Positions 668 to 59,070 of a DNA stretch of 64,000 nucleotides are shown piece after piece. Every line of letters starts with the position of its first letter. The first letter of the stretch is position 1. The notes under the pieces are model-generated. The model searched no databases. It had not been told where the DNA came from and was given only the letters and a program-made list of their open reading frames with translations. Where the stretch lies: positions 868,001-932,000 of the forward strand of contig NZ_AP012547.1 in assembly GCF_000828635.1 (NCBI RefSeq). Direction: 5' to 3'. The translations under genes were made by a program, and so were the position numbers. Source of the DNA: Sulfuritalea hydrogenivorans sk43H (GTDB lineage Bacteria > Pseudomonadota > Gammaproteobacteria > Burkholderiales > Rhodocyclaceae).

Positions 668-692
668 GACGATCGGGAATATCAAGAGTCGG

Positions 693-726
693 CGCTGGCG
701 ATACGGCGATTGCCGTATCGCCAGCG
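693..726 (+). repeat. Perfect 15-bp hairpin containing one copy of the dispersed 27-bp repeat
   Basis: Arms at 693-707 and 712-726 are perfectly complementary with a 4-base loop (GATT). The left arm is part of a longer copy (684-710) of the dispersed repeat with core AGTCGGCGCTGGC. It lies 17 bases after the copZ-like stop and could end that transcript, but no T-run follows, so Rho-independent termination is uncertain. The 24 bases 687-710 recur exactly at 4338-4361. Confidence 0.75.
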
Positions 727-4334: not shown

Positions 4335-4361
4335 AAAAGTCGGCGCTGGCGATACGGCGAT
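4335..4361 (+). repeat. Copy of the dispersed 27-bp repeat (core AGTCGGCGCTGGC)
   Basis: Bases 4338-4361 are identical over 24 positions to 687-710, and the 27-base alignment has one mismatch. The copy abuts the stop codon of the minus-strand gene at 4361-4666, overlapping it by one base. Unlike the first copy, no complementary right arm follows. Exact reuse of 24 bases in non-coding DNA 3.6 kb apart shows it is a repeat rather than shared codon usage. Confidence 0.85.
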
Positions 4362-4768: not shown

Positions 4769-6265
4769 TTACCAGACAAAGAAGGTCAGCCACCAGCTGG
4801 CGCCGACTGCGGCCAGCGGAAGCAGCCAGAGCAGGCCGGCGATACCGCGCGCCGCCGTACCGCTGGCGCCGACTCTCACCAGTTGCCAGCCGAGCGAGGC
4901 CGACCAGCCGAGGCCGATGACAAGCAGCGCCGCGCGCAGCGGGGTCAGCCAGCCCAGATGGACGCCTTCGGCGCGCAGATGGGTGGCGCTCATCATCGAC
5001 AAGCCGAGGAAGAGGCCGATGCCGGCCAGCGGCACGAGGCCCAGCGCCAGTCGACGCCAGTCGACGCCGGCGAGATGTGCGGCGGCGCGCACCGTCAGCC
5101 AGGCGAAGCCGCCCAGCACAATCGCATACATGGAAATCCAGATCAGGATCGCGGCACCGTCGAGCCAGGTGAACACGTCGCCGGCTTCGGGGTAGCGCGT
5201 GAGCAGCCACCAGGCCGGGCTGTCGCCCAGCGGCCAGAGGATATCGCGCGCCACCAGCCAGTCGGCAGCGGCCTGTTTGCCTCGCACGAACCACGGGTTG
5301 ACGGTCCACTGGAAGGCGCCCATGGCGACGCCGAGCATGCCGAACAGCAGTAGCACGGCCTCGTTGGTGCGCGGCATGTCGCCGCCGGCGTCGAGAATCT
5401 CGGCATTGGGCGAGCGCACGGCGAGCGTCACGGCATCGCGGTGGCCGCTGCAGCGGCCGCAAGCGTGGCACTGTCCGGCGCCCTTCATGTGCTTGACGTC
5501 GAGCAGCGGCGCGCAATCGACGGCGGCGCTGCGTTGTGGATGGGCGTCCCAGGCCGCGCGGTCGATGCGGAAATGCACCGGCGCGATACGCGCCAGCAGG
5601 CTGAAAACACCGGAGACCGGGCACAGGTAGCGGCACCAGACGCGTTTGCCCTTGCCATACATCCAGCCGACGCCGACGGCGGCGACGGTGGAGCCGCCGA
5701 GGATCAGCAGCGCGGCCTGCGGGTAGTCATAGACGCTGACGAGCTGGCCATAGACCGTGGTGAGGATGAAGGCCACCACCGGCCAGCCGCCCCAGCGCAT
5801 CCATTTCGGGATGGCGCCGCCGCGCCCGTGGCGGCTGGCGAACTCGGCCAGCGCGCCTTCCGGGCAGAGCACGCCGCACCAGACGCGGCCCATGAGCATG
5901 ATGGAGAGGATCACGAAGGGCCACCAGACGCCCCAGAACAGGTATTGCGCGAGCAGCACCAGCCGGTCCTGCCAGCAGGCGAGGTAGGCGGCCTTTTCTG
6001 TAGGGGTCGGGTTCAGTGCGCCGGTGGTGCATACGCTGCGATCGATCGCCGAGGTGGCGCCGAAATCAGAGGAGAACAGCCGCGCTTCCGGATGCGGATG
6101 CGGCAGGAAGGCGGGCAGGGCCACCAGTACCAGATAGAAGACCACGATCACCCACTGCACGGCGAGGATGGCGCGCCGGTGCCGCGCCATCCAGTCGCCG
6201 AGTCGCGCCAGTCGCGTGCGGCGTTGGGGCAGGCGCGGATGGAGGATGATGGTCGCGGTTTGCAT
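4769..6265 (-). CDS. ftrD: Membrane polyferredoxin of a P19-type iron-uptake system (FtrD-like)
   Basis: A 498-residue inner-membrane 4Fe-4S protein related to NapH, NosR and CcoG. The N-terminal half has membrane helices (one near IVVFYLVLVALPAFL). Two CxxxCP motifs of the NosR/NapH type follow (WCGVLCPEG and WCRYLCPVSG), then a cysteine cluster GQCHACGRCSGH, and several more helices at the C-terminus. FtrD-like proteins are thought to feed electrons to imported iron. The start at 6265 was chosen because it begins 5 bases after the cupredoxin stop; an in-frame extension to 6649 would overlap the upstream genes. FtrC, the FTR1 permease expected beside it, is absent. Confidence 0.85.
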   Translation of the reverse strand: MQTATIILHPRLPQRRTRLARLGDWMARHRRAILAVQWVIVVFYLVLVALPAFLPHPHPEARLFSSDFGATSAIDRSVCTTGALNPTPTEKAAYLACWQDRLVLLAQYLFWGVWWPFVILSIMLMGRVWCGVLCPEGALAEFASRHGRGGAIPKWMRWGGWPVVAFILTTVYGQLVSVYDYPQAALLILGGSTVAAVGVGWMYGKGKRVWCRYLCPVSGVFSLLARIAPVHFRIDRAAWDAHPQRSAAVDCAPLLDVKHMKGAGQCHACGRCSGHRDAVTLAVRSPNAEILDAGGDMPRTNEAVLLLFGMLGVAMGAFQWTVNPWFVRGKQAAADWLVARDILWPLGDSPAWWLLTRYPEAGDVFTWLDGAAILIWISMYAIVLGGFAWLTVRAAAHLAGVDWRRLALGLVPLAGIGLFLGLSMMSATHLRAEGVHLGWLTPLRAALLVIGLGWSASLGWQLVRVGASGTAARGIAGLLWLLPLAAVGASWWLTFFVW

Positions 6266-6270
6266 TATTT

Positions 6271-6627
6271 CTACTTGGCAATGACCAGCAGCTCGCCGGT
6301 GGCGATGTTGAATTCGTCGACGAACATGTGTTCGCCCGCCGGCAGCTTGACGACGACGAAGGATTCGGCCTTGGCGGCGAGGATCTTCTCGACGTGCAGG
6401 TCGGCGTTCTCGAATTCCAGCGGCCCCGGACCTTCGTTCTTGAGGATGAGCTTGATGCGCTGCCCGGCCGGTACTTCGAGCCGCTTCGGTGTGAACACGC
6501 CGTCCTTGACGATGATGGTCCAGGTCGGCAGGGCGGCCGGCGCCGCCTGCGCATGGGCGCCCGTCGCCCAGCCGAGACCCAGCCAGAGCGCGAGGACGAA
6601 TAATCCGTGCGAGAGTGGCGCCGGCAT
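6271..6627 (-). CDS. ftrB: Periplasmic cupredoxin-like protein (FtrB-like)
   Basis: A 118-residue secreted protein: signal peptide ending GAHA, then a single cupredoxin-type beta sandwich (FTPKRLEVPAGQRIKLILKN...GPLEFENADLHVEK...LPAGEHMF). In ftrABCD systems this family is proposed to oxidise or transfer Fe(II) next to the P19 protein. The classical blue-copper Cys ligand is not seen, and candidate ligands are His, Glu and Met residues. The start overlaps the porin stop in a TGATCATG junction, so translation is probably coupled. Confidence 0.82.
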   Translation of the reverse strand: MPAPLSHGLFVLALWLGLGWATGAHAQAAPAALPTWTIIVKDGVFTPKRLEVPAGQRIKLILKNEGPGPLEFENADLHVEKILAAKAESFVVVKLPAGEHMFVDEFNIATGELLVIAK

Positions 6628-6629
6628 GA

Positions 6630-8045
6630 TCAGAACCCCACCTTGGCACGCAGGCCGAACACCTTGACCGTCGGCGCGGCGGCGTTGCCTCCGGGCTGGC
6701 GAATCAACTGGAAGTCGGGCGTCAGTTCAACCTTGCTGTTGAGCTTGACGCGGTAGTAGAGCTCCAGTTGCTTTTCCGACCCGCTCGCCTGATAGCCGAA
6801 GTCGGCGTTGCCGTCGGCATCGGCGTCGATGGCCAGCGAGTCGCGGCGGAAGTTGGCGCTGGTGCGCAAGGCGCCGAGCGCCAGGCCGAGGCTGTCGGCG
6901 GCGCGTCCCCACGGGCTGCCGGCCAGTTCGGCGCCGAGCGTCAGCGCACGGTCGAAGCGCACCTGACCCTTCAGCTGGTGGCCATAGCGGCCGAACAGCG
7001 TTATGTCGTCGGCGACCTTCTGGTCGGCGGAGAAGCCGATTCCGGCGTGCTTGCGCTCGATCTGGTCGTAGGTCGCGCCGCGGCCGCGGCCGTTGTGCCA
7101 CAGGTAGGCGCGGTAGGTGCCCGGCAGATAATTGAAGCGTGCGTGGGTCTCGGCCTGGGCGATGACGAAGGGCATAGCCAGCGAGCCGGAGAAATTGGCG
7201 CCGGGGCCGGAGCCGAACATGCCCAGCGAAAGGCTCCACTCGGAACCTTTCTGCTTTTCATTGACGTATTGCGCGATTACGCCGGGCGCGAAGCCGTAGG
7301 CATCGGCGCGGATGTCGCCGCCGGAATCCAGCAGGGGGTTATGCACGAAGGCGTTGTTCATGAATTTCGCCGATTCGTCATCGGCCGCGCCGTTCTGGTC
7401 GAAGAAGACGAAGGGGTCGATCTTGCCGGCTGTGAGGTGCAGGTGTTCGCGGGCATTGGCCTTCGTTCCTCCATCCAGCAAGGGGATCTTGAGCTGATAC
7501 CAAGCCTGGGCCAGGATGCCGAAGGAATCGTCGCTGCCGGCGGCGGTCTGGAAGGCGGTGGTGTTGGCGCCGCTGGTGTAGGTTGGGCGCAGGCCGATGC
7601 CGCTGCCCTGGCCGAAGCGGAAGTGGGCGAAGATCTTGCCTTCGGTATCACCCATTTCGCCGCCGGGCAGCGTCACCGAAATGTCGCCGCGATAGTTGGC
7701 GCGGGGTTCATCGGCGCCACTCGCCGTGTGCGCAGCGCCGACCTTCTGCATCACGCCGGTCAGGCTGGCGCCGACCGTGATGCCTTCCAGCGATTCGATC
7801 TGGCGCGCCTGCTTCTGCATCGACAGGGTCTGGAATTCCACGGCCTTGAGGCGCGTAACGAGTTCCGGCTCTTTTTCGGAAAGGCGCTGGGTATCCAGCG
7901 CCTTTTCCATCTCCTTGTTCTGTTTTTCCAGCATCTCGATGCGCGCCGCGAGCCGTTTCAATTCGGCCAGCACCGCATCGTCGGCGGCCAGCACGGGCGC
8001 CGCGAACCCCGCCGCCAGCAGGGCGGCGATTAGCGTTCTGCGCAT
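6630..8045 (-). CDS. Outer-membrane porin with N-terminal coiled coil, in iron operon
   Basis: A 471-residue protein with a cleavable signal peptide (ending APVLA), then a short heptad-rich coiled coil (LKRLAARIEMLEKQNKEMEK) and a beta-strand-rich barrel ending in VGF with a C-terminal Phe, as expected for outer-membrane porins. The coiled coil probably trimerises or anchors to peptidoglycan. The start at 8045 was chosen because it encodes the signal peptide and couples to the P19 stop (TGATCATG). The location inside the P19/cupredoxin operon suggests passage of iron or an iron chelate; the substrate is inferred. A porin is not part of the textbook ftrABCD set. Confidence 0.82.
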   Translation of the reverse strand: MRRTLIAALLAAGFAAPVLAADDAVLAELKRLAARIEMLEKQNKEMEKALDTQRLSEKEPELVTRLKAVEFQTLSMQKQARQIESLEGITVGASLTGVMQKVGAAHTASGADEPRANYRGDISVTLPGGEMGDTEGKIFAHFRFGQGSGIGLRPTYTSGANTTAFQTAAGSDDSFGILAQAWYQLKIPLLDGGTKANAREHLHLTAGKIDPFVFFDQNGAADDESAKFMNNAFVHNPLLDSGGDIRADAYGFAPGVIAQYVNEKQKGSEWSLSLGMFGSGPGANFSGSLAMPFVIAQAETHARFNYLPGTYRAYLWHNGRGRGATYDQIERKHAGIGFSADQKVADDITLFGRYGHQLKGQVRFDRALTLGAELAGSPWGRAADSLGLALGALRTSANFRRDSLAIDADADGNADFGYQASGSEKQLELYYRVKLNSKVELTPDFQLIRQPGGNAAAPTVKVFGLRAKVGF

Positions 8046-8047
8046 GA

Positions 8048-8599
8048 TCAGTACCCGCCCTTCTTGCCGATGCCGGCGTAGGTGAATTCCCACTCGGTCT
8101 CGACCGGCTTGAACCACGGACGTACGCCGGTGGCGCGGTCGGTGTGGCGGCCGAAATGATTGCCGTGGGGGTTCTCTTTGGCGTTGGGCGGATAGATGAT
8201 GAACTTGACCTTGTACTTGCCGGGGCCGCGCAACTTGACGTTGTCGCCATAGTGCGGGCCGTCGCTGGCGACCATCGGCATCATGTCGCCGCGGATTGTT
8301 TCATTGCTGCCGGCCTTGGTCAGTTCGTACTTGACCAGCAGGTGCGGAATCCACATGCCTTCGGCGAAGCCGTTGGCATTGCTGGAAAGGGCGTGGATGT
8401 CGGCTTCGAGATGGATGTCGGATTCGGAGGCCTTGCGCATGTGGCCCTCCGGCTCCATTTCGACGGCCTGCAGATAGACCGCGGCGACTTCCATGCCGGC
8501 GACGTTCTGCGGCACGCCGATGGGGTATTCAAGGGCGGCGGCGGAGAAGGACGCCGCGGCGAGGGCGGTGATGACGAGGGAACGCAGGGGAAACAGCAT
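8048..8599 (-). CDS. ftrA: Periplasmic P19/Tpd-family iron-binding protein (FtrA-like)
   Basis: A 183-residue secreted protein with a signal peptide ending SAAALEYP. The body has the P19 (Tp34/FetP) family features: EYPIG near the mature start, a Met/Glu-rich stretch (VEMEPEGHMRKASESDIHLEADIHA) and a conserved C-terminal region (GKYKVKFIIYPP, then HFGRHTD). Family members bind Cu and Fe at a dimer interface and deliver iron to an inner-membrane transporter. The ATG is preceded by TTTGGAGG. It follows hemP by 133 bases and leads the tightly packed P19-porin-cupredoxin-polyferredoxin genes. Confidence 0.9.
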   Translation of the reverse strand: MLFPLRSLVITALAAASFSAAALEYPIGVPQNVAGMEVAAVYLQAVEMEPEGHMRKASESDIHLEADIHALSSNANGFAEGMWIPHLLVKYELTKAGSNETIRGDMMPMVASDGPHYGDNVKLRGPGKYKVKFIIYPPNAKENPHGNHFGRHTDRATGVRPWFKPVETEWEFTYAGIGKKGGY

Positions 8600-9747: not shown

Positions 9748-11754
<2,007 letters not shown>

Positions 11755-12424: not shown

Positions 12425-13435
<1,011 letters not shown>

Positions 13436-15242: not shown

Positions 15243-18200
15243 GGCCGACTCGATCAACATGGCACTGGGGCGCTCTCGGCGGTGGCCACGCTGTTCTGGC
15301 GCCTTGGCGCACATCCGGCAACTGCCCCTGAAGCGGATTTCCGTTGCCCTGGCGGCGGGTTTCTCTTCGCTGGTGCTCGCCAATCCCCTCGATCCAACCG
15401 TGGTGGCGGGCAGCGCCACATTCCAGAACGCCGGCAATACGCTTACCGTAACCAATGCAAACGGCACGGTAATCGACTGGAAAGGATTCTCGATCGGGCA
15501 GGGCGAGATCACCCGTTTCATTCAGGCCAATGCTGCAAGCCAGGTGCTGAACCGCGTCACCAGCGGCGATCCAAGCGTGATCCTGGGCGCTCTCCAATCC
15601 AACGGACGAGTATTCCTGATCAACCAGAACGGCATCGCTTTTGGCCCGAATGCACAAATCGACGTGGGTGGATTTGTCGTGTCGTCGCTGGGCTTGTCCA
15701 ACGCCGACTTTCTGGCGGGCCGGCTCAATTTCACCGAGCAGGCCGGTGCCGGAAACATTGTCAATCAGGGATTGATCCGAACCGCAAGCGGCGGTCTGGT
15801 CGCCCTCATTGCGCCAACCATTGAAAACCACGGAATCATTCAGGCGCCCAACGGCGATGTGATTCTCGCTGCTGGCAAGAGCGCAAATCTGGTCGATTTG
15901 CAGCGCCCCTCGATCCAGGTGGAAGTGAATGCGGCCGACAACCAGGCACTCAATGTCGGGCAGCTGGTGGGTCGCAACATCGGCATATATGCAGGTGCCA
16001 TCCGGCATTCCGGTATAGCCAGTGCCAACACCGCGGCGCTTGATGAAACGGGTCGCGTCGTTTTCAAGGCGGTGGGCGACACGCTGGTGTCGGGCAAGGT
16101 GTCGGCGCGCAATGAGGCTGGTTCTGGCGGCCGAATCGAAGTGCTGGGCGATCGCGTCGGTCTGTTTGATGGCGCTGACATTGATGCGTCCGGCAAGACT
16201 GGCGGCGGGACTGTTCTAGTCGGTGGTGACTTCCAGGGCAAAAATCCGGACGTGCAGAACGCACAACGCACCTACGTTGCCCGGACGGCAAAAATCAGCG
16301 CTGATGCAATTGAGCAGGGCGATGGCGGCAAGGTGGTCGTTTGGGCGGATGACACGACGGTTTTCCACGGCTCGATTGACGCTCGGGGCGGGGCAGAGAG
16401 TGGCGACGGCGGAAATGTGGAGGTATCCGGGAAGCAGAATTTGGGCTTTACGGGAACTGTTGCTACTGGTGCCGCAAAAGGCAAGACAGGTTCTTTGCTG
16501 CTCGATCCAAATGATCTGTATGTCGGTCAGGATCCGAGTAACGGAGCACTGCTCGAGCCAAACGCTGATGCGGATGCAACGACATTTTTTGCGCAGACCA
16601 ATCCCAATGACTATTTCGTTTTGGCGGCAAGCCTTGCAGGGGATACGAATTACACTCTTCAAGCCAACCACGATGTGATCTTCAATGCCAACGTCGGCTT
16701 TGGTTCGGCGGCGGGCAAAACGGTATTGATCACGGCGACCAACAACATCTTCTCTACCGGATTTGCCATCACTACCGCAGGTGGCGCCCTGACCATGAAT
16801 TCGGCCACGATGTCGTTGGGAGGCATCGATACAGGTGCCGGCTTGCTGACGCTCAACAATTCCGGCGCGGCTTCGCAGTCTGGGGTATTTGCCGGCTCTG
16901 GTGGTCTGACCAAAACAGGTGGCGGGACGCTGACCCTATCGCAGATCAACACCTACACGGGCACGACCAACGTAACGGCGGGGACGCTGAGCGTAAGCGA
17001 CGCAGCGGCGCTGAACACGGCATCGTCGGTGGTGGTCAATGGAGGCACGCTGGACATCAACAACATCACGCTCAACACGCTGGCGGGGATGACGGTGCAG
17101 GGCACGGGCGCGGGAGGCGTGGGAGCGCTGACCGGCACGGGAGCCGGAGCGCGCTACGACGGCGCGGTGACGCTGGCGGCGGCGACGACAGTCGGCGGTG
17201 GCGGCACGCTGACGCTGAGCGGGATCATTGGCGATGGTGGCAGTGCCTACAAACTGAGCAAGGAAGGCGCGGGCACACTGGTCCTGGGTGGGGCCAACAG
17301 CTACACGGGCTTAACTACGGTGAGCGCGGGCACATTGGCCTACGGCGCGGCTGACGTGATTGCCACTGGCGGAGTGACGGTAGATGGCGCGTCCGCAATA
17401 TTGGCGCTTGGCCTCAACCATAGCGACTCCGTAGGCACGGTGACCGTGGCAAACGGGGGCAGCATCACAGGCACCGGTACCTCGGCACTGACGAGCACCG
17501 GCAGCTTTGAGATGCAGTCTGGTTCGGTGAGCGCGATCCTGGCCGGCAGCGGCATTGCACTGAACAAGACCACGGCGGGCACGGTGACGCTTTCAGGCGC
17601 GAATACCTACACCGGGATAACCACGGTGAGCGCAGGAACATTGGTTGTCGGGGCCGCTGCGCCTTCTGGGTCGGCTGGCGCGTTGGGTAATGCGACCAGT
17701 GCGGTGCTATTGGGAGACACGGCCGGTAGTGCGAACGCAGCGTTGTTGATTGGCGGCGCCTTTACGGTTGGACGTGATGTCACCGTTCAAGCGGGCAGCA
17801 GCGGCACGGCGACAATTGGCGGGAGTACCGCAAATAGTTCGACGTTCTCGGGCTCGGTGACGTTGAACAAGAACGCGACATTTACGGCGGCCAACGGCGG
17901 TACCACTATATTCTCGGGGATCATAAGCGATGGCGGGGCTCAAACGCTGACACTGGATGGAGCCAACGGCAGCACGATCAACCTCGCCAACAACGTAACG
18001 GTGAATGCATTGACTGTTTCGGCAACGACGCAGAATATTTCGCTGGTCGGGCGCGAGCAACAGCATCGCGGGAGCGACGACCTTCAACAACACGGGCACG
18101 ACGACGCTGGGCGACCAGAACACGGACAGCACCACCTTTACCGGAGGGCTGGTGGCGACGGCGGGGGCGAAGAACATCGCGGGCGCGATCAACACCACCA

Positions 18201-21595: not shown

Positions 21596-23923
21596 ATGAG
21601 TGCTATCAGCGCGCCTGAATCCGTTTCGACTCCGCTGCCCGAAAAGATCGCCTTGCTGGTGCATGAGGCGCGCTGGCTGCTGGTCGGCCTCGTCGGCCTC
21701 TATCTGGGGTTGGTCTTGTGGGGTTTCGAGCGGACCGACCCCGGCTGGTCGCATGCCGCCACGGTTGAGCGCATCGCCAATCCGGGCGGGAAATTTGGCG
21801 CCTGGCTGAGCGATCTTCTGCTGTACTTGTTCGGGCTCTCCGCCTGGTGGTGGGTGGCGTTGCCGTTCTTCCTGCTGATGTGGGGCTACCATCGACTGAG
21901 CCACCTGTTTGGCGGTGACAGACGTCCCCTGTTGATTGCCCTGTCTGGCTTCGCCCTGCTCCTGCTGGCCAGTTGCGGCCTTGAGGCCATGCGCTTCTGG
22001 AGCCTGAAGATAGCGCTGCCCCTGATGCCCGGCGGCATGCTCGGCGTCGAGGTCAGTCGCCAGATCACACAGTATCTGGGTTATACCGGCGGTACACTGG
22101 TTCTGCTGGCGTTGGCGATGATCGGTTTCAGTTTGTTCACGGGCGCTTCGTGGATAACGATTGCCGAGAAGTGCGGTACCTTGCTCGAAGGCGTCTATGT
22201 CGGCGTGCGCAGCTTGTGGGACGGCTGGCAGGATCGTCGTTACGGGCGCGCGGTGGCCGAGCAGCGCGAAGTGGTGGTTGAAACGGAACGCCGCAAGGTC
22301 GAGGAAAATCCGCCGCCGCCGATCCGGATCGAGCCGGTGGAAGCGATGGTGCCGGTCGCCGCCAAGGCCGTGGCCCGTGCGGACAAGGAGCGCCAGGCGC
22401 CGCTGTTTTTCGATGCGCCGGGCGGCGCGCTGCCGCCGCTGCATTTGCTGGCCGAGCCCTCGCACAATCCGGCGGATCTGCCGTCAGCCGAGACACTGGA
22501 ATTCACCTCGCGCCTGATCGAACGCAAGCTGGCCGACTTCAACGTCGAGGCCAAGGTGCTGACCGCGCATCCCGGCCCAGTGGTGACGCGCTACGAGATC
22601 GAGCCGGCGGTGGGCGTCAAGGGCAGCCAGATCGTCGGCCTCGCCAAGGACCTGGCACGCGCGCTCTCCTTGGTATCGATCCGCGTGGTCGAGACCGTGC
22701 CCGGCAAATCCTGCATGGCGCTGGAACTGCCCAACCCGAAGCGGCAGATCGTGCGCCTGTCGGAGATCATCGGCTCGCAGGCCTATCACGGCATGCATTC
22801 GCCGCTGTCGATGGCCATGGGCAAGGATATCGGCGGCCAGCCGGTGGTGGTCGATCTGGCGAAGATGCCGCACCTGCTCGTGGCGGGCACCACGGGCTCG
22901 GGGAAATCGGTCGGGGTCAATGCGATGATCCTCTCGCTGATCTACAAGTCCGAGCCGAAGGACGTGCGCATGATCATGGTCGACCCGAAGATGCTCGAGT
23001 TGTCGATCTACGAAGGCATTCCGCACCTGCTGGCGCCGGTGGTGACCGACATGACCAAGGCCGCCAACGCGCTGCACTGGTGCGTCGGCGAAATGGAGCG
23101 GCGCTACAAACTGATGTCGGCGCTCGGCGTGCGCAACCTCTCCGGCTTCAACAGCAAGATCAACGAAGCGAAGAAGGCCGGCGAGTCCATCCCGAATCCC
23201 TTCTCGCTGACGGCCAATACCGAGATCGGCCCCGAGCCGCTGGAGCCCATGCCCTATATCGTGGTGGTGATCGACGAGCTGGCCGACCTGATGATGGTGG
23301 TGGGCAAGAAGATCGAGGAACTCATCGCGCGCCTGGCGCAGAAGGCGCGGGCCTCGGGCATCCACCTGATCCTCGCCACGCAGCGGCCCAGCGTCGACGT
23401 GATCACCGGCCTGATCAAGGCCAACATTCCGACGCGGATCGCCTTCCAGGTATCGAGCAAGATCGATTCGCGCACCATCCTCGACCAGATGGGCGCGGAG
23501 GCGCTGCTCGGCCAGGGCGACATGCTCTACCTCGCGCCGGGCACCGGCCTGCCGATCCGCGTGCATGGGGCCTTTGTCGCCGACGATGAAGTGCATCACG
23601 TCGTCGATCACCTGAAGAAGGTCGGGCCACCCGACTATGTCGAGGGCTTGCTCGACGGTCCGGCCGGCGAGGACTCGGGAGTCGGCGCTGGCCAAGGTAA
23701 CGACACGGCGGCCGGCGATGCCGAAGCCGACCCGATGTACGACCAGGCCGTCGAAGTCGTGCTGAAAACGCGGCGGCCCTCGATCTCGCTGGTACAGCGC
23801 AATTTGCGCATCGGCTACAACCGCGCCGCACGGCTGATCGAAGCCATGGAAAAGGCCGGCTTGGTCACGCCCATGAATGGCGCGGGCGGCCGCGAGGTGA
23901 TTGCGCCAAATCGTCAGGAGTGA
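21596..23923 (+). CDS. ftsK: DNA translocase FtsK
   Basis: A 775-residue septal DNA pump that sorts chromosome termini at division and activates XerCD. It has four N-terminal membrane helices (to about residue 180), a short Pro/charged linker, and the RecA-like motor with Walker A GTTGSGKS (near residue 430) and [14 protein letters not shown]-terminal winged-helix gamma domain reads KOPS ([20 protein letters not shown], then [13 protein letters not shown]). The linker before gamma ([12 protein letters not shown]) contains an exact copy of the 13-base core of the dispersed repeat at 23680-23692. The overall length is short for FtsK because the linker is short. Confidence 0.96.

Positions 23924-24557: not shown

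Positions 24558-24574
<17 letters not shown>
23957..24574 (+). CDS. lolA: Outer-membrane lipoprotein carrier protein LolA
   Basis: A 205-residue periplasmic chaperone that ferries lipoproteins from LolCDE to LolB. A signal peptide (to about PVQAT) precedes an open beta-barrel fold with the family segments ARGVFAQTV, GIFALQRPGKFRWSYEKPY and DGNKLWSYDPELNQV. The order ftsK-lolA-rarA-serS is a classic proteobacterial arrangement and supports the call. The 3' end overlaps rarA by 17 bases. Confidence 0.95.
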
Positions 24575-27166
<2,592 letters not shown>

Positions 27167-28746: not shown

Positions 28747-31032
<2,286 letters not shown>

Positions 31033-31659: not shown

Positions 31660-32403
31660 ATGACTTTTGATAGCTCGGATACGAGGGAATTAGCAGCGCG
31701 GCGGCTACGCTATTCCATCGTTGCCTCGCTGCTGGTTCACCTGGCGATACTCTGGCCCGGCAACACGCGCGTGCTGACCCGGGATGCACCTGCGATTCTG
31801 CACGCCACGCTGAAACCGCCGCCGCGGAGGCCGATGGAGCCCATACCGACGGAAAAGCCGGCACCGCGCGCCGTGGCGCCAGCGCCGACTCCTGGCGCGC
31901 CGGCAAGCAAACAGCGGCAACCAGTATTAGAGCAGGCCAGCCAGGATTCGGTTCCGCCGGTGGCTGCGCCGACGGCTCCGCCGGTGAAATCGCAGGCCGA
32001 GCCCGAGTCCGCCGCTGCCACAAACCTGCCGCCGTCGCTTTCGGCCGCGGCGGGAGCGGCCGAGGGCGCCCTGATGACGGAAGCCAGCGCGTCCGGCGAA
32101 GCGGTGGACGGCCTGCGCGGCTATCGCCTCGCGGTGGCCACCCAGGCCAGGCGCTTCAAGCGCTATCCGGCGCAGGCGATGGCTTCCGGCTGGGCCGGAA
32201 CCGCCGACATCCGCGTCGAAGTCGGCCGCGACGGCCGGCCGCGTGCCGCCACCGTTGTCCGTTCCAGCGGGCATGAACTGCTGGATCGGGCGGCGCTGGC
32301 CATGATTGACGCCGGCGCCCTGCGCGCGCGCCTGCCCGAAAGCTTGCGTGGCAAGGCGTTCGCGATAGTGCTGCCGGTGGTTTTCAATCTGGACGACGGG
32401 TAA
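31660..32403 (+). CDS. TonB-like energy transducer
   Basis: A 247-residue protein: one N-terminal membrane helix (YSIVASLLVHLAILW, with the SxxxH-like motif of TonB), then a long Pro/Ala-rich periplasm-spanning linker and a TonB C-terminal domain (FKRYPAQAMASGWAGTADIR, then VVRSSGHELLDRAALAMI). It could couple ExbB-ExbD to an outer-membrane receptor, but neither ExbBD nor a receptor is nearby. The linker PRAVAPAPTPGAP overlaps a copy of the dispersed repeat (31867-31893). The stop touches the convergent Nudix gene. Confidence 0.85.
   Translation: MTFDSSDTRELAARRLRYSIVASLLVHLAILWPGNTRVLTRDAPAILHATLKPPPRRPMEPIPTEKPAPRAVAPAPTPGAPASKQRQPVLEQASQDSVPPVAAPTAPPVKSQAEPESAAATNLPPSLSAAAGAAEGALMTEASASGEAVDGLRGYRLAVATQARRFKRYPAQAMASGWAGTADIRVEVGRDGRPRAATVVRSSGHELLDRAALAMIDAGALRARLPESLRGKAFAIVLPVVFNLDDG
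31867..31893 (-). repeat. Dispersed 27-bp repeat copy inside the TonB-like gene
   Basis: It contains the exact 13-base core on the minus strand (31878-31890) and matches 22 of 27 positions overall. Read in this gene it encodes AVAPAPTP in the Pro-rich linker, so it is tolerated in frame. Confidence 0.65.
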
Positions 32404-34266: not shown

Positions 34267-34565
34267 GGTCGGCAGCAGAACCCGCTCTCCACTAGTTCGT
34301 TAGTTATATCCGACGCGCTCCTCCGGCAAGCCGGCAGGGGCGCGTTCCATTTAGCATAGTCTCGACGGGAATTTTTTCGGCGTGGTTTCAGCGCCGACTT
34401 TCGATTCATGTTTCGCCCCGGCATCCTCTGCCAAGGGCCTCGACCTGTGTTGAAACTTGGCTTTGATTGCCGCGAGCCCTCTGTTTGCCGTTATGATTGC
34501 ATTTCAGGCAGGCTCCGAGATAGCATCGTTTCGCAAAAGAACAACAGTTCAGGGTAGGGTCCAAG
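34267..34565 (+). promoter_or_regulatory. flhC-motA intergenic region
   Basis: A 299-base stretch without a convincing gene. After flhC, bases ~34314-34344 can form an imperfect GC-rich hairpin (CGCGCTCCTCCGG...CAGGGGCGCG type) that might end the flhDC transcript. A short partial match to the dispersed repeat core (TCAGCGCCGACTT) is at 34388-34400. The motA promoter should lie in the last 150 bases. GCCGTTAT at 34487-34494 resembles a sigma-28 -10 element but lacks a -35 at the right distance. Confidence 0.45.
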
Positions 34566-38079: not shown

Positions 38080-40389
38080 ATGTCCATTGACATGAGCCAG
38101 TTCTATCAGGTGTTCTTCGAGGAAGCTCAGGAACATCTGAACAGCATGGAATCCTTGCTGCTGGAACTGGATATCAGCGATCCTGATGCAGAGCAGCTCA
38201 ATGCGATCTTTCGCGCTGCACATTCGATCAAGGGGTCGGCCGGCACGTTCGGGTTTACCGATCTGGCCGAAGTCACCCATGTCCTCGAGAACCTCCTCGA
38301 TCGCATCCGCAAGGGCGAGCTGGCCTTGCGTCCGGAGATGATCGATGCATTCCTGGATGCCGGCGATGTCCTGAAAGACCTGTTGGCCGCGCACCGTGGC
38401 GATGGCGTGGCGGATCATTCGCAGGTTGAAGCGATGTGCAAGCGACTTTCCGAGCTGACGGTGAGCACTGCCACGACGGTCCAGGCTCCGGCACCGGCCT
38501 CGGCGGTGGTCACGGAAGTCGCCGGCCAGACGTCGCCCGGCGATCTCGATGTCAGTTTCGTGCTGGACATGGATGCAGCGGAAGCGGCGAACGCGGTCGA
38601 AAATCTGGTCGCGGAGCTGGGTCAGCGTTGGACCGTTGAAGTGGTCGAGCGGGCAAGCGCCGCGGACGATCCGTGGCGCTTGCGTCTTGCCGCGGAGGCC
38701 GATCCGGAAATCGTGCGCGGCATGCTCGAATTTGTTGCGCGCAGCGACAGCATTCGCATCGGGCCGGCCGGTTCCATGGGAAGCATCGCGGATGGCAGCG
38801 ACGGCGCCTACGGTTTCTTTGATGACGACGCAGCGGTTGTCACGAAGGCTGCAACGGATGATTCATGGGGGCTCTTCGGCGACGAGCCCGAGCTTGCGCC
38901 AGCAGGGACGCAGGCGACAGCGGCTGCAGCCGATGATTCCTACGGACTTTTTACGGACTTTCCTGCCCCGGCAGTGGCTGCCGCCGTGTCGCCAGCGCCG
39001 TCCCTGGATACCGCCCCCGGCTCCGCCGGAGGCATAACTCTTGCCGCTGCGGCGGGAAGCGAAGGCGAAGGCTTTGGTTTCTTCGTCGACGTGCCGGCCG
39101 CTCCAGTGAACGCAACGCCGGTCGCGGCTACGCCCAAGCCTGAAGCTCCGACGCCGCCGGATAAGCCGGGAACCGCCAAGCGCCCTGCGCCGAAGCCTGC
39201 CGCCGGCGGCGAAACCTCGATCCGCGTCGATGTGGACAAGGTCGATCAGTTGATCAACCTGATCGGCGAACTGGTGATTACCCAGGCCATGCTGGCGCAG
39301 TCCGCCTCGACGCTCGATCCGGTCGAGTTCGAGCGCCTGCACAACGGGCTGGCCCAGCTGGAGCGCAACACGCGGGACATGCAGGAATCCGTCATGTCGA
39401 TTCGCATGATGCCGATCTCGGTGGTGTTCTCGCGCTTCCCGCGCGTGGTGCGCGATCTCGCCCAGAAGCTGGGCAAGCAGATCGAGCTCAAGACCACCGG
39501 TGAAGGCACGGAACTCGACAAGAGCCTGATCGAGCGCATCAGCGATCCCTTGACCCATCTGGTGCGCAACAGCCTCGATCACGGCGTTGAAATGCCGGCG
39601 GACCGTGTCGCCAAGGGCAAGTCGCCCGTCGGCACGATCACGCTCAAGGCCTATCACCAAAGCGGCAATATCGTCATCGAAGTGGGTGACGACGGCGCCG
39701 GGCTGAATCGCGAGAAGATTCTTGCCAAGGCTCGGGAAAAGGGCCTGCCGGCGCATGACCAGATGACCGACAATGAGGTCTGGCTGCTGATTTTCGAGCC
39801 CGGCTTCTCCACCGCGGATCAGGTGACCGAGGTTTCCGGGCGCGGCGTCGGCATGGATGTGGTCAAGCGCAACATCACTGCCATGGGCGGCCGGGTCGAG
39901 ATCGAATCGATGACCGGCATCGGCACCCGCATGACCGTGCGTCTGCCACTGACGCTGGCGATCCTCGATGGCATGTCGGTCGCCGCCGGCAAGGAAACCT
40001 ACATCATTCCGCTCGGCTATGTCATCGAATCGCTGCAGGCGGATCGCAGCATGATCAAGAGCGTGTCCGGTGTCGAGCGCCTGATCCAGGTCCGCGGCGA
40101 GTATCTGCCGGTGGTGGCCTTGTACGAGATTTTCAGGATTCCCGGTACCGTCACGCAACTTGACAAGGGCATCATGGTGGTGCTTGAAGCGGATGGCGTG
40201 AAAGCGGCGCTGTTCATCGATGCTTTGGTGGGGCAGCATCAGGTGGTGATCAAGAGTCTGGAATCCAATTACCGCAAAGTTCCCGGCGTGTCCGGCGCGA
40301 CGATCATGGGCGATGGCCATGTCGCCCTGATTCTGGATGTGGGGGCCCTTGTGCATATGGCGAAGAGTGCCCTGCCCGCCGCTGCCTGA
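38080..40389 (+). CDS. cheA: Chemotaxis histidine kinase CheA (first copy)
   Basis: A 769-residue kinase. The HPt domain has His48 in AAHSIKGSAGTFG; residues ~150-225 form an alpha/beta segment that may stand in for P2. A long Ala/Pro linker (about 230-385) follows, then dimerisation, the ATP-binding HATPase (NSLDHGVEMP, GDDGAGL, GRGVGMDVV) and a CheW-like P5 domain. The linker holds four copies of a [YWF]G[LF]F motif near residues 244, 263, 288 and 332, and a degenerate copy of the dispersed repeat at 38980-39006. It phosphorylates CheY and CheB. Confidence 0.95.
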   Translation: MSIDMSQFYQVFFEEAQEHLNSMESLLLELDISDPDAEQLNAIFRAAHSIKGSAGTFGFTDLAEVTHVLENLLDRIRKGELALRPEMIDAFLDAGDVLKDLLAAHRGDGVADHSQVEAMCKRLSELTVSTATTVQAPAPASAVVTEVAGQTSPGDLDVSFVLDMDAAEAANAVENLVAELGQRWTVEVVERASAADDPWRLRLAAEADPEIVRGMLEFVARSDSIRIGPAGSMGSIADGSDGAYGFFDDDAAVVTKAATDDSWGLFGDEPELAPAGTQATAAAADDSYGLFTDFPAPAVAAAVSPAPSLDTAPGSAGGITLAAAAGSEGEGFGFFVDVPAAPVNATPVAATPKPEAPTPPDKPGTAKRPAPKPAAGGETSIRVDVDKVDQLINLIGELVITQAMLAQSASTLDPVEFERLHNGLAQLERNTRDMQESVMSIRMMPISVVFSRFPRVVRDLAQKLGKQIELKTTGEGTELDKSLIERISDPLTHLVRNSLDHGVEMPADRVAKGKSPVGTITLKAYHQSGNIVIEVGDDGAGLNREKILAKAREKGLPAHDQMTDNEVWLLIFEPGFSTADQVTEVSGRGVGMDVVKRNITAMGGRVEIESMTGIGTRMTVRLPLTLAILDGMSVAAGKETYIIPLGYVIESLQADRSMIKSVSGVERLIQVRGEYLPVVALYEIFRIPGTVTQLDKGIMVVLEADGVKAALFIDALVGQHQVVIKSLESNYRKVPGVSGATIMGDGHVALILDVGALVHMAKSALPAAA
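38980..39006 (-). repeat. Degenerate dispersed-repeat copy in the cheA linker
   Basis: It matches the 27-base repeat at about 21 positions, including an unbroken CGCCAGCGCCG. In cheA it encodes AVSPAPSL between two of the [YWF]G[LF]F motifs. On its own it would not be convincing; it is listed because of the better copies elsewhere. Confidence 0.4.
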
Positions 40390-45363: not shown

Positions 45364-46437
45364 ATGCCAATCAAGGTGCTTATTGTCGACGACTCCGCGC
45401 TGATGCGCGCATTGCTGACTGAAATCATCAATGGTGCGGCGGATCTCAAGGTGGTGGGTGCTGCCCCGGATCCCATCGCCGCGCGCGAAATGATCAAGAC
45501 CTTGAACCCCGACGTGCTGACCCTTGATGTCGAAATGCCGCGCATGGATGGACTGGAGTTTCTTGACCGGCTGATGCGCTTGCGGCCGATGCCGGTGATC
45601 ATGATTTCCTCATTTACCGCCGCGGGCTCCGAGGTTACCCTGAAGGCCCTCGAACTCGGCGCGGTCGATTACCTGGCCAAGCCGCGGGCCGAGAATATCT
45701 CCATGTTGCAGGGCTATGCGGAAGATATTCGCGACAAGATCCGCGCTGCGAGCGGCGCTCGCCTGAAGTCGACCGCGGTGCGCGCCGCCGTGCCGCCAGC
45801 GCCGACTCTTGTGCCGCAGAAAAGCAGTTTCTCGCCGCGTCTGCTGGCGGAGAAAGTCATTGCCATCGGCGCTTCGACGGGAGGCACGGAGGCCATCAAG
45901 GAAGTACTCAGTTCGCTGCCGGGAGAAATGCCGCCCATCGTCATGGTGCAGCATATGCCGGAAAGCTTTACGCCGTCATTCGCACAGCGTTTGAACAGCT
46001 TGTCCAAACTGACGGTCATCGAGGCCCAGGGAGGCGAGCGGCTGCAGCCGGGCACTGCCTATCTGGCGCCGGGCCATTCGCACATGAGGGTGCGCAAGAG
46101 CGGCGGTGGTCTTGTGCTGGAACTGTCCCGGGAGGAACCGGTGAACCGTCATCGGCCGGCCGCCGATGTGCTGTTCCGCTCGGTGGCCGAGCAGGTCGGG
46201 AAGAACGCCATCGGAGTGATCCTCACCGGTATGGGCAAGGATGGCGCGCAGGGTTTGCTGGCCATGCATCAGGCCGGGGCCTGGAACATCGGCCAGGACC
46301 AGATGTCCTGCGTTGTTTACGGAATGCCGCGAGAAGCAGCCGAGATCGGCGCGCTGGATGAGGTTGCCGGCCTCGCTGATATTTCGGCAAGCATCGTGGC
46401 AAAGTTGCGCGCGCTGGACAAGCGCGCTGGAGGCTGA
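45364..46437 (+). CDS. cheB: Chemotaxis protein-glutamate methylesterase CheB
   Basis: A 357-residue protein with an N-terminal REC domain (DDSALMRALL, phospho-Asp in LTLDVEMPRMDG) and a C-terminal methylesterase. The esterase has the Ser-His-Asp triad in IGASTGGTEAI, VMVQHMPESFTPSFAQRL and GMGKDGAQGLL. It removes receptor methyl groups after phosphorylation by CheA. The linker (AAVPPAPTLVPQ) overlaps a copy of the dispersed repeat at 45784-45810. Confidence 0.96.
   Translation: MPIKVLIVDDSALMRALLTEIINGAADLKVVGAAPDPIAAREMIKTLNPDVLTLDVEMPRMDGLEFLDRLMRLRPMPVIMISSFTAAGSEVTLKALELGAVDYLAKPRAENISMLQGYAEDIRDKIRAASGARLKSTAVRAAVPPAPTLVPQKSSFSPRLLAEKVIAIGASTGGTEAIKEVLSSLPGEMPPIVMVQHMPESFTPSFAQRLNSLSKLTVIEAQGGERLQPGTAYLAPGHSHMRVRKSGGGLVLELSREEPVNRHRPAADVLFRSVAEQVGKNAIGVILTGMGKDGAQGLLAMHQAGAWNIGQDQMSCVVYGMPREAAEIGALDEVAGLADISASIVAKLRALDKRAGG
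45784..45810 (-). repeat. Dispersed 27-bp repeat copy in the cheB linker
   Basis: It carries the exact 13-base core (45795-45807) plus CTT and matches 23 of 27 positions. The following bases GTGCCGCAG match the flank of the YgiQ copy with one indel, so similarity extends beyond the core. It is read in frame as AVPPAPTL between the REC and esterase domains. Confidence 0.7.
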
Positions 46438-51324: not shown

Positions 51325-52164
51325 ATGGCAAATCCGATCAAACCAGACGACGGCAGCGATTCCGACGACCTCCAAGCCTTGTTCGACAGTATTGCAGCAG
51401 GTGCACCACCGGCTCCACCGCCCCCACCGGCGCGGGCCGACTCGTCGGGCGACTCGGATGACCTGCAGGCGTTGTTCGATAGTGTCGCCCAGGCGCAGCC
51501 AACCGAGGCCGCCGTATCGTCAGCGCCGACTGTTGCGAGCTCGGATGGTGCTCCGCAGGAGGAAGTGGTATTCAATCGCCTGGGGCATCTGGCGCGACAA
51601 TTGCACGACAGCCTGCGCGGGCTGGGGGCCGACAAATTGCTGGAAGATGCCGCGCACAAGGCGATTCCGGACGCTCGCCAGCGACTGACCTACATTGCGC
51701 AGATGACGGAACAGGCTGCCTCCAAGGTGCTGAATGCAGCCGATATCGCCAAGCCGGTGCAGGACGAGTTGATGGCGCGCTCCGAAGCGATGTCTAAACG
51801 CTGGGACAAGATGTTCGCCAACCAGTTGTCGGTCGATGAGTTCAAACTGCTGGCGGCCGATACGCGTACCTATTTTGCCGAGGCACCGCCCAAGCTCAAG
51901 ATCACCAACGATCAGTTGATGGAAATCATGCTGGCACAGGATTTTCAGGACCTGACGGGGCAGGTGATCAAGAAGATAGTGGATGTCGTGCAGAACATGG
52001 AGACTCAGCTACTGGCCCTGTTGATCGAGGCCATGCCGGAGCAGCGCAAAGCCGAGGCTCCGGAAGGCCTGCTGAATGGGCCGGTGATCAATGCGGCAGG
52101 GCGTAGCGACGTGGTGACGAATCAGTCGCAAGTCGATGACCTGTTGGAGAGTCTGGGGTTCTGA
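51325..52164 (+). CDS. cheZ: CheY-phosphate phosphatase CheZ
   Basis: A 279-residue CheZ. The long helical hairpin contains the catalytic region AQDFQDLTGQVIKKIVDVVQ (with the active Asp/Gln), and the C-terminal CheY-binding tail VDDLLESLGF is complete. The N-terminal ~70 residues are unusual: SDDLQALFDS occurs twice (residues 13-22 and 44-53), separated by a Pro-rich stretch. A copy of the dispersed repeat lies just behind them. It ends before a structured cheA2 leader. Confidence 0.95.
   Translation: MANPIKPDDGSDSDDLQALFDSIAAGAPPAPPPPPARADSSGDSDDLQALFDSVAQAQPTEAAVSSAPTVASSDGAPQEEVVFNRLGHLARQLHDSLRGLGADKLLEDAAHKAIPDARQRLTYIAQMTEQAASKVLNAADIAKPVQDELMARSEAMSKRWDKMFANQLSVDEFKLLAADTRTYFAEAPPKLKITNDQLMEIMLAQDFQDLTGQVIKKIVDVVQNMETQLLALLIEAMPEQRKAEAPEGLLNGPVINAAGRSDVVTNQSQVDDLLESLGF
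51508..51534 (-). repeat. Dispersed 27-bp repeat copy in the cheZ linker
   Basis: GCCGTATCG, one mismatch, then CAGCGCCGACT: 23 of 27 positions match, and the outer GCCGTATCG half is better preserved here than in most copies. It encodes AAVSSAPTV in the linker between the N-terminal LF motifs and the CheZ helical core. Confidence 0.6.
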
Positions 52165-57652: not shown

Positions 57653-59070
57653 CCGTAAAACGATTCGTCGGCGCATCTGCGCGGGAATGTCTGCGTCGCG
57701 TAAAGGATGAACTCGGACCCGACGCCGTGGTGATTTCAAACAAGCCGCTGGACAACGGCGTCGAGATCGTCGCAATGACGCCGGACAGCCTTGATGCGAT
57801 CTCGCAGCAGGCTGCCGCTCCACGCGCCGCCGCGGCGAGACCCGCGGTGGCGGCATCTGCCTCGCCAAAGCCGAAAGCGGACGACGAGGACTACACCGTA
57901 ACCCTGTCTTCGGCGGTGCGCAAAGCTCCTGTGGTGCGTCCGTGGATACCCTACGAGGCGGCTCCCGCCGTCGACCCGGTCAAGGAAAATCGTTCGAGCT
58001 TGCGGCCATTGCCGCCGCGTGGTGCGGTAGAAACCGATGTGTTGTCACCATCCCAGGTTGCGACTTCATTGCGTTCTGCCACCGAGCAGGCTTTGCCGTC
58101 GGCTGCCGAGGCGCCGCCCGAGGTCGCCGAGCTGCGGGACGAAATGCGCCTGATCAAGGGCCTGCTTGAGCGCCAGCTGGCCGGCTTTGCCTGGAGTGAA
58201 ATGTCGCGCAACACGCCGGTGCGCGCGCTGCTGCTCGGCGAGATGATCGAGGCCGGATTCTCGGGCCAGCTTGCGCGACGCCTGGTGCAGGAGATGCCTG
58301 AAGACATGAATCAGGAGGATGGGCGCAAGTGGCTGAAGGCGGCTGTGAATCGGCGCCTGCGCACCTTGCCGACGGAATCGGATTTCATCGACCGCGGCGG
58401 TGTATATGCCATCGTCGGGCCCACCGGTGTCGGCAAGACCACCACTACGGCGAAACTGGCCGCACGTTGCGTGGTGCGCTACGGAGCCGATCGCCTTGCG
58501 CTGCTGACCACCGACGGTTACCGGATCGGCGCTCAGGAACAATTGAGAATCTACGGACGCATTCTTGGCGTTCCGGTGTTCGTGGTACGCGACGGCGAGG
58601 ATCTGCGGCGCACGCTGGCCGACCTGCGCGACAAGCACATGGTGCTGATCGACACGGTGGGCATGAGTCAGCGCGATCGCATGGTGGCCGAGCAGGCGGC
58701 GATGCTGATGCGTTCCGGAGAGGTGAATCGACTGTTGCTGCTCAACGCCGGCAGTCGCGGCGACACTCTGGATGACGTGGTCCGTGCCTACGCCGGGGAA
58801 GACCTGGCCGGCTGCATCATGACCAAGGTCGATGAAGCGACGGCGCTGGCTCCGGCGCTGGATTGCATCGTGCGGCATGGCTTGACGCTCAGCTATGTAG
58901 CCAACGGTCAGCGGGTTCCCGAGGATCTGCATCTGCCCAATCGGAACTACCTGTTGCATCGGGCCTTCAAAGTCGGCGCTGGCGAGACGGCGCACAGCCT
59001 GCGTGAAGAAGAAGTTGCCATGGCAATCAGTTCGCGCAACTCCTCCCCGCTCGGAGCTTCCTTTGCTTGA
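57649..59070 (+). CDS. flhF: Flagellar placement GTPase FlhF
   Basis: A 473-residue SRP-type GTPase that directs flagellum assembly to the cell pole. An N-terminal basic region (MTVKRFVGASARECLRRVKD) and a variable linker precede the NG domain with GPTGVGKTTTTAKLAARC (near residue 256), LLTTDGYRIGAQEQL and LIDTVGMSQRDRM. A copy of the dispersed repeat falls near the C-terminus (FKVGAGETA). The start overlaps flhA by 4 bases. Confidence 0.95.
   Translation: MTVKRFVGASARECLRRVKDELGPDAVVISNKPLDNGVEIVAMTPDSLDAISQQAAAPRAAAARPAVAASASPKPKADDEDYTVTLSSAVRKAPVVRPWIPYEAAPAVDPVKENRSSLRPLPPRGAVETDVLSPSQVATSLRSATEQALPSAAEAPPEVAELRDEMRLIKGLLERQLAGFAWSEMSRNTPVRALLLGEMIEAGFSGQLARRLVQEMPEDMNQEDGRKWLKAAVNRRLRTLPTESDFIDRGGVYAIVGPTGVGKTTTTAKLAARCVVRYGADRLALLTTDGYRIGAQEQLRIYGRILGVPVFVVRDGEDLRRTLADLRDKHMVLIDTVGMSQRDRMVAEQAAMLMRSGEVNRLLLLNAGSRGDTLDDVVRAYAGEDLAGCIMTKVDEATALAPALDCIVRHGLTLSYVANGQRVPEDLHLPNRNYLLHRAFKVGAGETAHSLREEEVAMAISSRNSSPLGASFA
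58968..58994 (+). repeat. Dispersed 27-bp repeat copy near the flhF 3' end
   Basis: It contains the exact core AGTCGGCGCTGGC (58971-58983) and continues GAgACGGCG, matching 22 of 27 positions. It encodes KVGAGETA in the C-terminal tail of FlhF, beyond the GTPase core. Confidence 0.65.

Follow-up and report, generated by a model that had tools for sequence, protein, structure and literature searches.

Copies of the repeat in the window

The 64-kb window analysed here (64,000 nucleotides) covers positions 868001-932000 of the genome of Sulfuritalea hydrogenivorans (Rhodocyclaceae; one contig, 3,802,648 bp) and carries a short dispersed repeat, copies of which lie both between genes and within genes of varied function. 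A weight matrix built on the repeat finds 15 matches in the window, 12 of them strong (at least 28 bits) and three weak, together with one interrupted copy. These are listed below by window position, strand and matrix score in bits; domain-based names are from Pfam, and the gene names cheA and flhF are those of an earlier model-made reading of the DNA (the sequence-only reading).

687..708, plus: copy, intergenic; score 43.3; a 15-nt inverted arm lies 3' of the copy, so that a hairpin is possible
4338..4359, plus: copy, intergenic; score 43.2
4853..4874, minus: copy in gene 4769-6649 (minus) with a Fer4_5 domain, reads RVGASGTA; score 30.4
7722..7743, minus: weak copy in OprB-type porin gene 6630-8117 (minus), reads KVGAAHTA; score 21.1
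10788..10809, minus: copy antisense in NAD synthase gene 9748-11370 (plus); score 31.8
12905..12926, minus: copy over VVGGGNTA in thioredoxin-reductase-like gene 12425-13384 (minus), Pyr_redox_2; score 28.0
17190..17211, plus: weak copy, uncalled by the rough gene caller but within open reading frame (ORF) 15232-18492; score 25.3
23680..23710, plus: interrupted copy in ftsK (FtsK domains), consisting of 13 bases, 9 extra in-frame bases and the remaining 9
25224..25245, minus: copy antisense in MgsA-type ATPase gene 24558-25877 (plus); score 36.3
30220..30241, minus: copy in radical SAM (YgiQ-type) gene 28747-31032 (minus), reads RVGAGATA; score 38.8
31869..31890, minus: copy antisense in TonB_C gene 31660-32403 (plus), reads RAVAPAPT; score 31.2
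34378..34399, minus: weak copy, intergenic; score 23.8
38982..39003, minus: copy antisense in cheA-type gene 38080-40389 (plus), CheA-like matches to which occur in 49 of 49 genomes; score 30.1
45786..45807, minus: copy antisense between the two CheB domains of gene 45364-46437 (plus), reads AAVPPAPT; score 37.2
51510..51531, minus: copy antisense in cheZ, 51325-52164 (plus), reads AAVSSAPT; score 36.2
58971..58992, plus: copy in flhF-type gene 57649-59070 (plus), reads KVGAGETA; score 35.9

The sequence-only reading had described a 27-bp repeat with at least eight copies. Its seven exact 13-mers all lie at the positions and on the strands given for them (100 shuffles of the window yield a mean of 0.01 and at most one), the 24-base identity between 687-710 and 4338-4361 is correct, and so are the counts of 25, 23, 23, 22, 22 and 21 matches over 27 positions for six coding copies, which score 30.1-38.8 bits. 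The repeat is thus real, while the copy number was set too low and the unit too long. The 13-mer at 23680 in ftsK is likewise exact, but only 15 of 27 positions match there, the copy being interrupted. Moreover, the statement that all coding copies fall in linkers or tails does not hold for the 28.0-bit copy at 12905, which overlaps the VVGGGNTA motif of the thioredoxin-reductase-like gene.

Sequence and abundance of the repeat unit

The unit is a sharp, bipartite, non-palindromic word of 22 bp, or about 25 bp when weak flanks are included, of the form AGTCGGCG-CTGGCGnn-ACGGCG with a fixed spacer. Thirty copies align without gaps as (A/G)A(A/G)-AGTCGGCGCTGGCG-nn-ACGGCG-A, and flank conservation ends about three bases out. 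The consensus of the window genome, AGTCGGCGCTGGCGnnACGGCG, contains CTG, and the longest hairpin arm that it could form is 3 bp. The outer blocks AGTCGGCG and ACGGCG start 16 bp apart; when spacers of 0-59 bases are scanned, 69 of 74 pairings of the two blocks show a spacer of 8 bases. The ftsK copy at 23680 is one of the exceptions, its otherwise complete motif being split by the 9 in-frame bases.

The exact 13-mer occurs 406 times in the genome (206 forward, 200 reverse) and the reversed 13-mer, used as a control word, not once, a density far above chance. Weight-matrix counts were made in a genome sample consisting of 20 evenly spaced 20-kb stretches and the window (464 kb, 12% of the genome). 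This sample holds 92 sites of at least 14 bits and 18 more at 4-14 bits, with none of 12 bits or more in the reversed control, and extrapolation from the 92 sites gives about 754 copies genome-wide. Each base of the outer blocks is at least 90% conserved among the sampled sites, and the middle is looser. Two perfect, closely spaced inverted pairs of the motif are present, both between called genes. An inverted arm of at least 9 nt within 70 bp accompanies 10 of the 92 sites, and five of these arms are 15-22 nt long.

Strands are balanced in the sample (41/51, p 0.35), no tie to GC skew is seen by inspection, and the sites are scattered almost randomly among the 20 stretches (dispersion index 1.27). 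The most AT-rich stretch (L161, G000 1900001-1920000; GC 0.551) holds no site against a mean of 3.85, with a Poisson probability of 0.02 for a stretch picked post hoc; it is sparsely coding and looks acquired.

Placement in genes and codon use

Within the sample, 56 of the 92 sites lie inside called genes and 36 between them, where intergenic sequence makes up 14.8% (binomial p 1e-8). The codon-usage gene caller behind these figures is crude, scoring the site at 17190 as intergenic although it lies in an ORF, and the intergenic enrichment is therefore an upper value. Genic copies keep to a few frames: 24 of 27 sense copies share one frame, typically reading (K/R)VGAGDTA, and among 29 antisense copies, 19 share a frame that typically reads AVSPAPT and nine another that typically reads RR(I/P)ASAD.

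All VGA[GD]xT peptides (19/19) and all [SP]PAPT peptides (10/10) in the sampled called genes are encoded by the motif, whereas codon usage predicts the motif spelling in 0.155 of cases per VGA[GD]xT and 0.0074 per [SP]PAPT peptide. The constraint thus acts on the DNA and not on the protein. The sequence-only reading had named the same residues in different codons as an outcome that would refute the repeat, and the result came out against chance. Collectively, the shuffles, the reversed controls and the codon comparison rule out chance or codon bias as the origin of the repeat.

Distribution across genomes

The repeat is confined to a part of the family. In 150 Rhodocyclaceae genomes, a 14-mer of the unit is present in 47-393 copies in 15 genomes and in 0-14 copies in the other 135. 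With the more tolerant scaffold AAAGTCRG-N10-ACGGCG, 31 of 249 family genomes, belonging to 8 of 68 genera, show 76-637 copies; the other 218 hold 0-32 copies, and the reversed control 0-4. Among 386 genomes from other families of the order, the scaffold maximum is 14 copies. A 26-mer retrieves 90 stretches from a scan of genome contigs from which the window's own genome was possibly excluded. All of the 80 matches listed are metagenome-assembled genomes, titled Sulfuritalea, Sulfurisoma, Rugosibacter, Rhodocyclaceae, Rhodocyclales or, more vaguely, Burkholderiaceae, beta- or gammaproteobacteria.

In a ComEC tree built from 40 selected genomes, rooted at the midpoint and with intermediate-count genera such as g66 left out, a single branch (93/92) separates 20 motif-rich and five motif-poor genomes of the bearing genera from 15 motif-free genomes. 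The simplest reading is one origin followed by respelling, with losses in G611 and G543 and perhaps in G633 and G084, which are incomplete. A de novo search for over-represented words in 80-kb samples found no uptake-like word in G005, G034, G042, G057, G067, G083 or G112, and none in G611 (152 kb) or G543 (100 kb); this search is insensitive, and G023 escaped it as well despite 76 scaffold copies genome-wide. G611 holds another repeat, CGCAGAGGCGCAGAGG-like, with nine matches of its 11-mer in two (L442, L450) of ten contig stretches sampled.

A few near-perfect copies occur outside the bearing genera (G230, G183, G160, G345 and others) and may reflect import from those genera or contamination of draft genomes; import is likelier for G018, which carries such copies in a closed, one-contig genome. 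In addition, at least 120 stretches of viral contigs contain a 22-mer of the repeat, and may come from phages of these hosts or from host flanks. With one seed site subtracted from each, these stretches carry 0.66 sites per 10 kb, roughly one third of the density in the window genome (about 2 per 10 kb).

Dialects of the repeat

Bearing genomes spell the word differently while keeping its geometry. In genus g10 the 14-mer is scarce, and AAAAGTCAGTCcCcgC...ACGGCG is found instead with the same spacing and up to 439 scaffold copies; this spelling can also be written AGTCAGTCCC...ACGGCG or AAAGTCAG...ACGGCG, and the g10 consensus AGTCAGTCcCcgC...ACGGCG lacks CTG. G080 (genus g19) keeps the first half and ends in ACGGCACC, and G148 (genus g64) has CTGGT for CTGGC in four of eight sampled sites. 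The automatic logo drifted for G046, G148 and G023, and no logo consensus is claimed for these three.

Within the window's own genus, G628 carries AGTTGGCGCTGRCG (AGTT) 404 times and AGTCGGCGCTGRCG (AGTC) 52 times, whereas eight other genomes of the genus hold 0-3 AGTT and 12-438 AGTC copies. The 52 AGTC sites may represent an unfinished switch or imports from an AGTC species. Altogether, one fixed geometry is written in at least four clear ways, namely the AGTC, AGTT, g10 and G080 types, and these dialects share a core and follow the phylogeny, as uptake sequences do.

Origin of individual copies

DNA from relatives was set against 17 of the 56 genic sites. Of the 54 comparisons that this yielded, 36 fall in cheA, cheB and cheZ. 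The motif occupies the same place in the relative in 13 of the 54, only three of which come from loci not chosen for carrying it. Where the relative lacks the motif (41 comparisons), the alignment is gapless at the site in 32 cases, shows 1-5 gap characters in seven and six or more in two. Identity is 0.32 at the sites against 0.63 in other windows of the same alignments. Among the copies in the window, that of CheB recurs at the same place in G001 and G101 and is absent in G126, and that of FlhF is replaced gaplessly in G083. In G611, a sister genome nearly without the word, the FlhF copy is likewise replaced gaplessly and the CheB copy with a 2-base gap. These comparisons favour an origin in which many copies probably arose where they stand, through base changes at poorly conserved places, and some with segment replacement. 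Segment replacement is argued for Neisseria in the accessible part of PMC2397512.

Candidate receptor genes

The window genome carries ComEC. A minor-pilin operon lies at L246 13785-17296 (G000 about 3023785-3027296) and contains PilE/ComP-like, FimT-like and further pilin-like genes, names which, apart from the PF16732 match, we presume from the look of the sequences. Against four genus-mates, ComEC is 85.5-86.7% identical, PilE-like 36-51% and FimT-like 27-41%. Such fast-evolving pilins might fit a specificity determinant, and fast evolution of pilins has other causes too; of the minor pilins, the PilE/ComP-like and FimT-like ones are no more than receptor candidates. The FimT-like protein holds AVSPAPR, resembling the antisense reading of the motif, and no matrix site lies in that gene. 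Matches to ComP_DUS range from about 40 to 100 bits over the 150 genomes, with motif bearers mostly near 42-52 (exceptions G126, G038 and G113).

An uptake-sequence reading of the repeat

Together, these features suggest that the repeat most probably serves as an uptake sequence, a watermark of self-DNA like the Neisseria DNA uptake sequence (DUS) and the Haemophilus uptake signal sequence (USS); among the possibilities raised in the sequence-only reading, that of a DNA uptake or processing signal is well supported. A word that is maintained at the DNA level, on both strands and within genes, that is respelled in concert at constant geometry and is inherited in one group, calls for a reader acting in trans and for a spreading force. 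Uptake bias coupled to recombination would supply both. To our knowledge, it is the sole mechanism known to have made such patterns.

In the proposed mechanism, the outer blocks AGTCGGCG and ACGGCG would be recognised by a receptor of the type IV pilus or competence machinery that binds them, and word-bearing DNA would be imported preferentially. Imported fragments would then recombine into the chromosome. Through their more frequent import, chance near-matches would be drawn towards the consensus and kept where the protein tolerates them, a form of molecular drive; as receptor specificity drifts, the set of sites would be respelled and dialects would result. Uptake, binding, recombination and the receptor are parts that we infer from the pattern of the repeat.

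Several observations weigh against this account. The presence of ComEC in 40 of 40 genomes examined is in keeping with uptake, but these include all 15 motif-free ones, and ComEC therefore does not discriminate; a FimT-like match is found in 38 of the 40 and is missing in the motif-carrying G010 and G138; and ComP_DUS (PF16732) occurs in 138 of 150 family genomes irrespective of the motif, G138 not being among them. None of the three genes correlates with the motif in its presence or absence, and all three are rejected as markers of it. G611 (12 copies) and G543 (three scaffold copies) belong to bearing genera, nearly lack the word and keep both ComEC and the FimT-like match. The 27 sense and 29 antisense genic copies lack the orientation bias of known uptake sequences; the accessible part of PMC2346458 describes these as favouring one orientation within genes, which is a reported bias and not a requirement. 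Bias towards gene ends is likewise absent, 23 of 56 genic sites lying in the terminal fifths. The evidence for substitution is narrow, since 33 of the 41 motif-lacking comparisons come from cheA, cheB and cheZ and elsewhere five of eight are gapless, and the sites show more gaps (0.20) than do the remaining windows of these alignments (0.057). The small overlapping stretches of G628 and the window-genome sample contain five sites, only one of which, intergenic, sets AGTT cleanly opposite AGTC; the others set AGTT against a GGAC-spelled copy, AGTT against no copy, a window-genome site against an altered copy, and a window-genome site against none. The density of about 2 per 10 kb is below that of Neisseria. 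Finally, no report of competence in this family was found in the literature searched by titles, a search that left subscription papers mostly outside.

Alternative explanations

The strongest alternative is a binding site for a chromosome-organising or DNA-processing protein (of the Chi, KOPS, matS or nucleoid-protein type) that acts without uptake. The near-random spread over the genome is compatible with it, and a coevolving cytoplasmic protein could drive dialects. Chi and KOPS are strand-biased, whereas the repeat is balanced (206/200) and does not follow GC skew, which rules out a strand-biased replication motif; moreover, we know of no such site as long as 22 bp at hundreds of genic copies. 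A chromosome-protein site is accordingly unlikely.

A mobile mini-element, or a repeat of the repetitive extragenic palindromic (REP)/RAYT type, in either case a small spreading unit that linkers would tolerate, was the other possibility put forward in the sequence-only reading. Dispersal, the intergenic enrichment (36 of 92 sites, against a 14.8% share of the sequence, with the rough gene caller), the excess of gaps at sites with three of eight comparisons outside the che genes gapped, and one Y1_Tnp gene in the genome all lend it something. Yet the consensus is non-palindromic, most comparisons with motif-free relatives (32 of 41) are gapless, some copies fall on motifs that look conserved, such as VVGGGNTA, flanks are not conserved beyond about three bases, the 3.3-kb locus of the transposase has one copy only, and hundreds of sites are respelled at fixed spacing, unlike known transposition. 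The idea is left unsupported and appears highly improbable.

Biased gene conversion, driven by a recombination protein in the course of ordinary exchange while uptake itself is unselective, would likewise yield drive and dialects. Uptake sequences explain the same data by a known mechanism, and no example of gene conversion at this scale is known to us, which leaves this explanation a very small chance. Transcription terminators or RNA hairpins, to which the two perfect inverted pairs and the 15-nt arm at 687 might point, can be dismissed as a general role because so few sites (10/92) have an inverted arm, most (56/92) lie within called genes, and in the window only a tRNA reaches the Rfam threshold.

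Relation to known systems

The repeat carries most sequence-level hallmarks of DUS and USS, and by sequence it belongs to neither. With the DUS of Neisseriaceae, also Betaproteobacteria, it shares many copies (hundreds to thousands for DUS), clade-specific dialects with a common core (accessible part of PMC3630211) and closely spaced inverted pairs (accessible part of PMC2397512). DUS are 10-12-mers (ATGCCGTCTGAA) with a CTG core, whereas the Rhodocyclaceae word is a 22-bp bipartite one, found in another family and at lower density. For Neisseria, PMC3630211 gives about 1900 10-mers per genome. DUS proper is rejected, since the window consensus contains CTG but is neither ATGCCGTCTGAA nor a CTG-core dialect, and the g10 type is without CTG. 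The USS of Pasteurellaceae resembles the repeat in having two spellings in one family, AAGTGCGGT and ACAAGCGGT (again from the accessible part of PMC3630211), and differs in sequence and in the class of bacteria. USS proper is likewise rejected, as the consensus departs from the AAGTGCGGT/ACAAGCGGT core. The look-alike starts AAAGTGCGG and AAAGTCGG are probably a coincidence with respect to USS.

REP/RAYT repeats are likewise dispersed and partly intergenic, but the Rhodocyclaceae word has no palindrome, few signs of insertion and coordinated dialects. HIP1, Chi and KOPS are also words over-represented genome-wide, but shorter, and we know of no comparable dialect switching among them. In the literature listings searched, from which subscription papers were mostly missing so that a prior report is possible, no paper on uptake sequences in this family was found. 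The string GTCGGCGCTGGC was not found in the searched literature, and among the matches listed for four other core strings, none was about uptake sequences by its title.

Uptake-sequence tags are so far known from only two other bacterial families. With its long bipartite word in at least four spellings, the repeat of the Rhodocyclaceae is probably the third such system and one that evolved independently. One species would then be seen after a change of a single letter at about 400 sites, while about 50 others still have the old spelling. With so many species and dialects, coevolution could serve to identify the receptor, and the AGTC/AGTT species pair offers a clean test of how a watermark is rewritten in a genome. 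Both known systems are associated with the mucosal surfaces of humans and animals (PMC2397512). If the reading as an uptake sequence is true, bacteria of lakes and groundwater would possess a third one; bacterial sex guided by sequence would then be no peculiarity of life with a host, and the coevolution of receptor and watermark could be followed in free-living bacteria.
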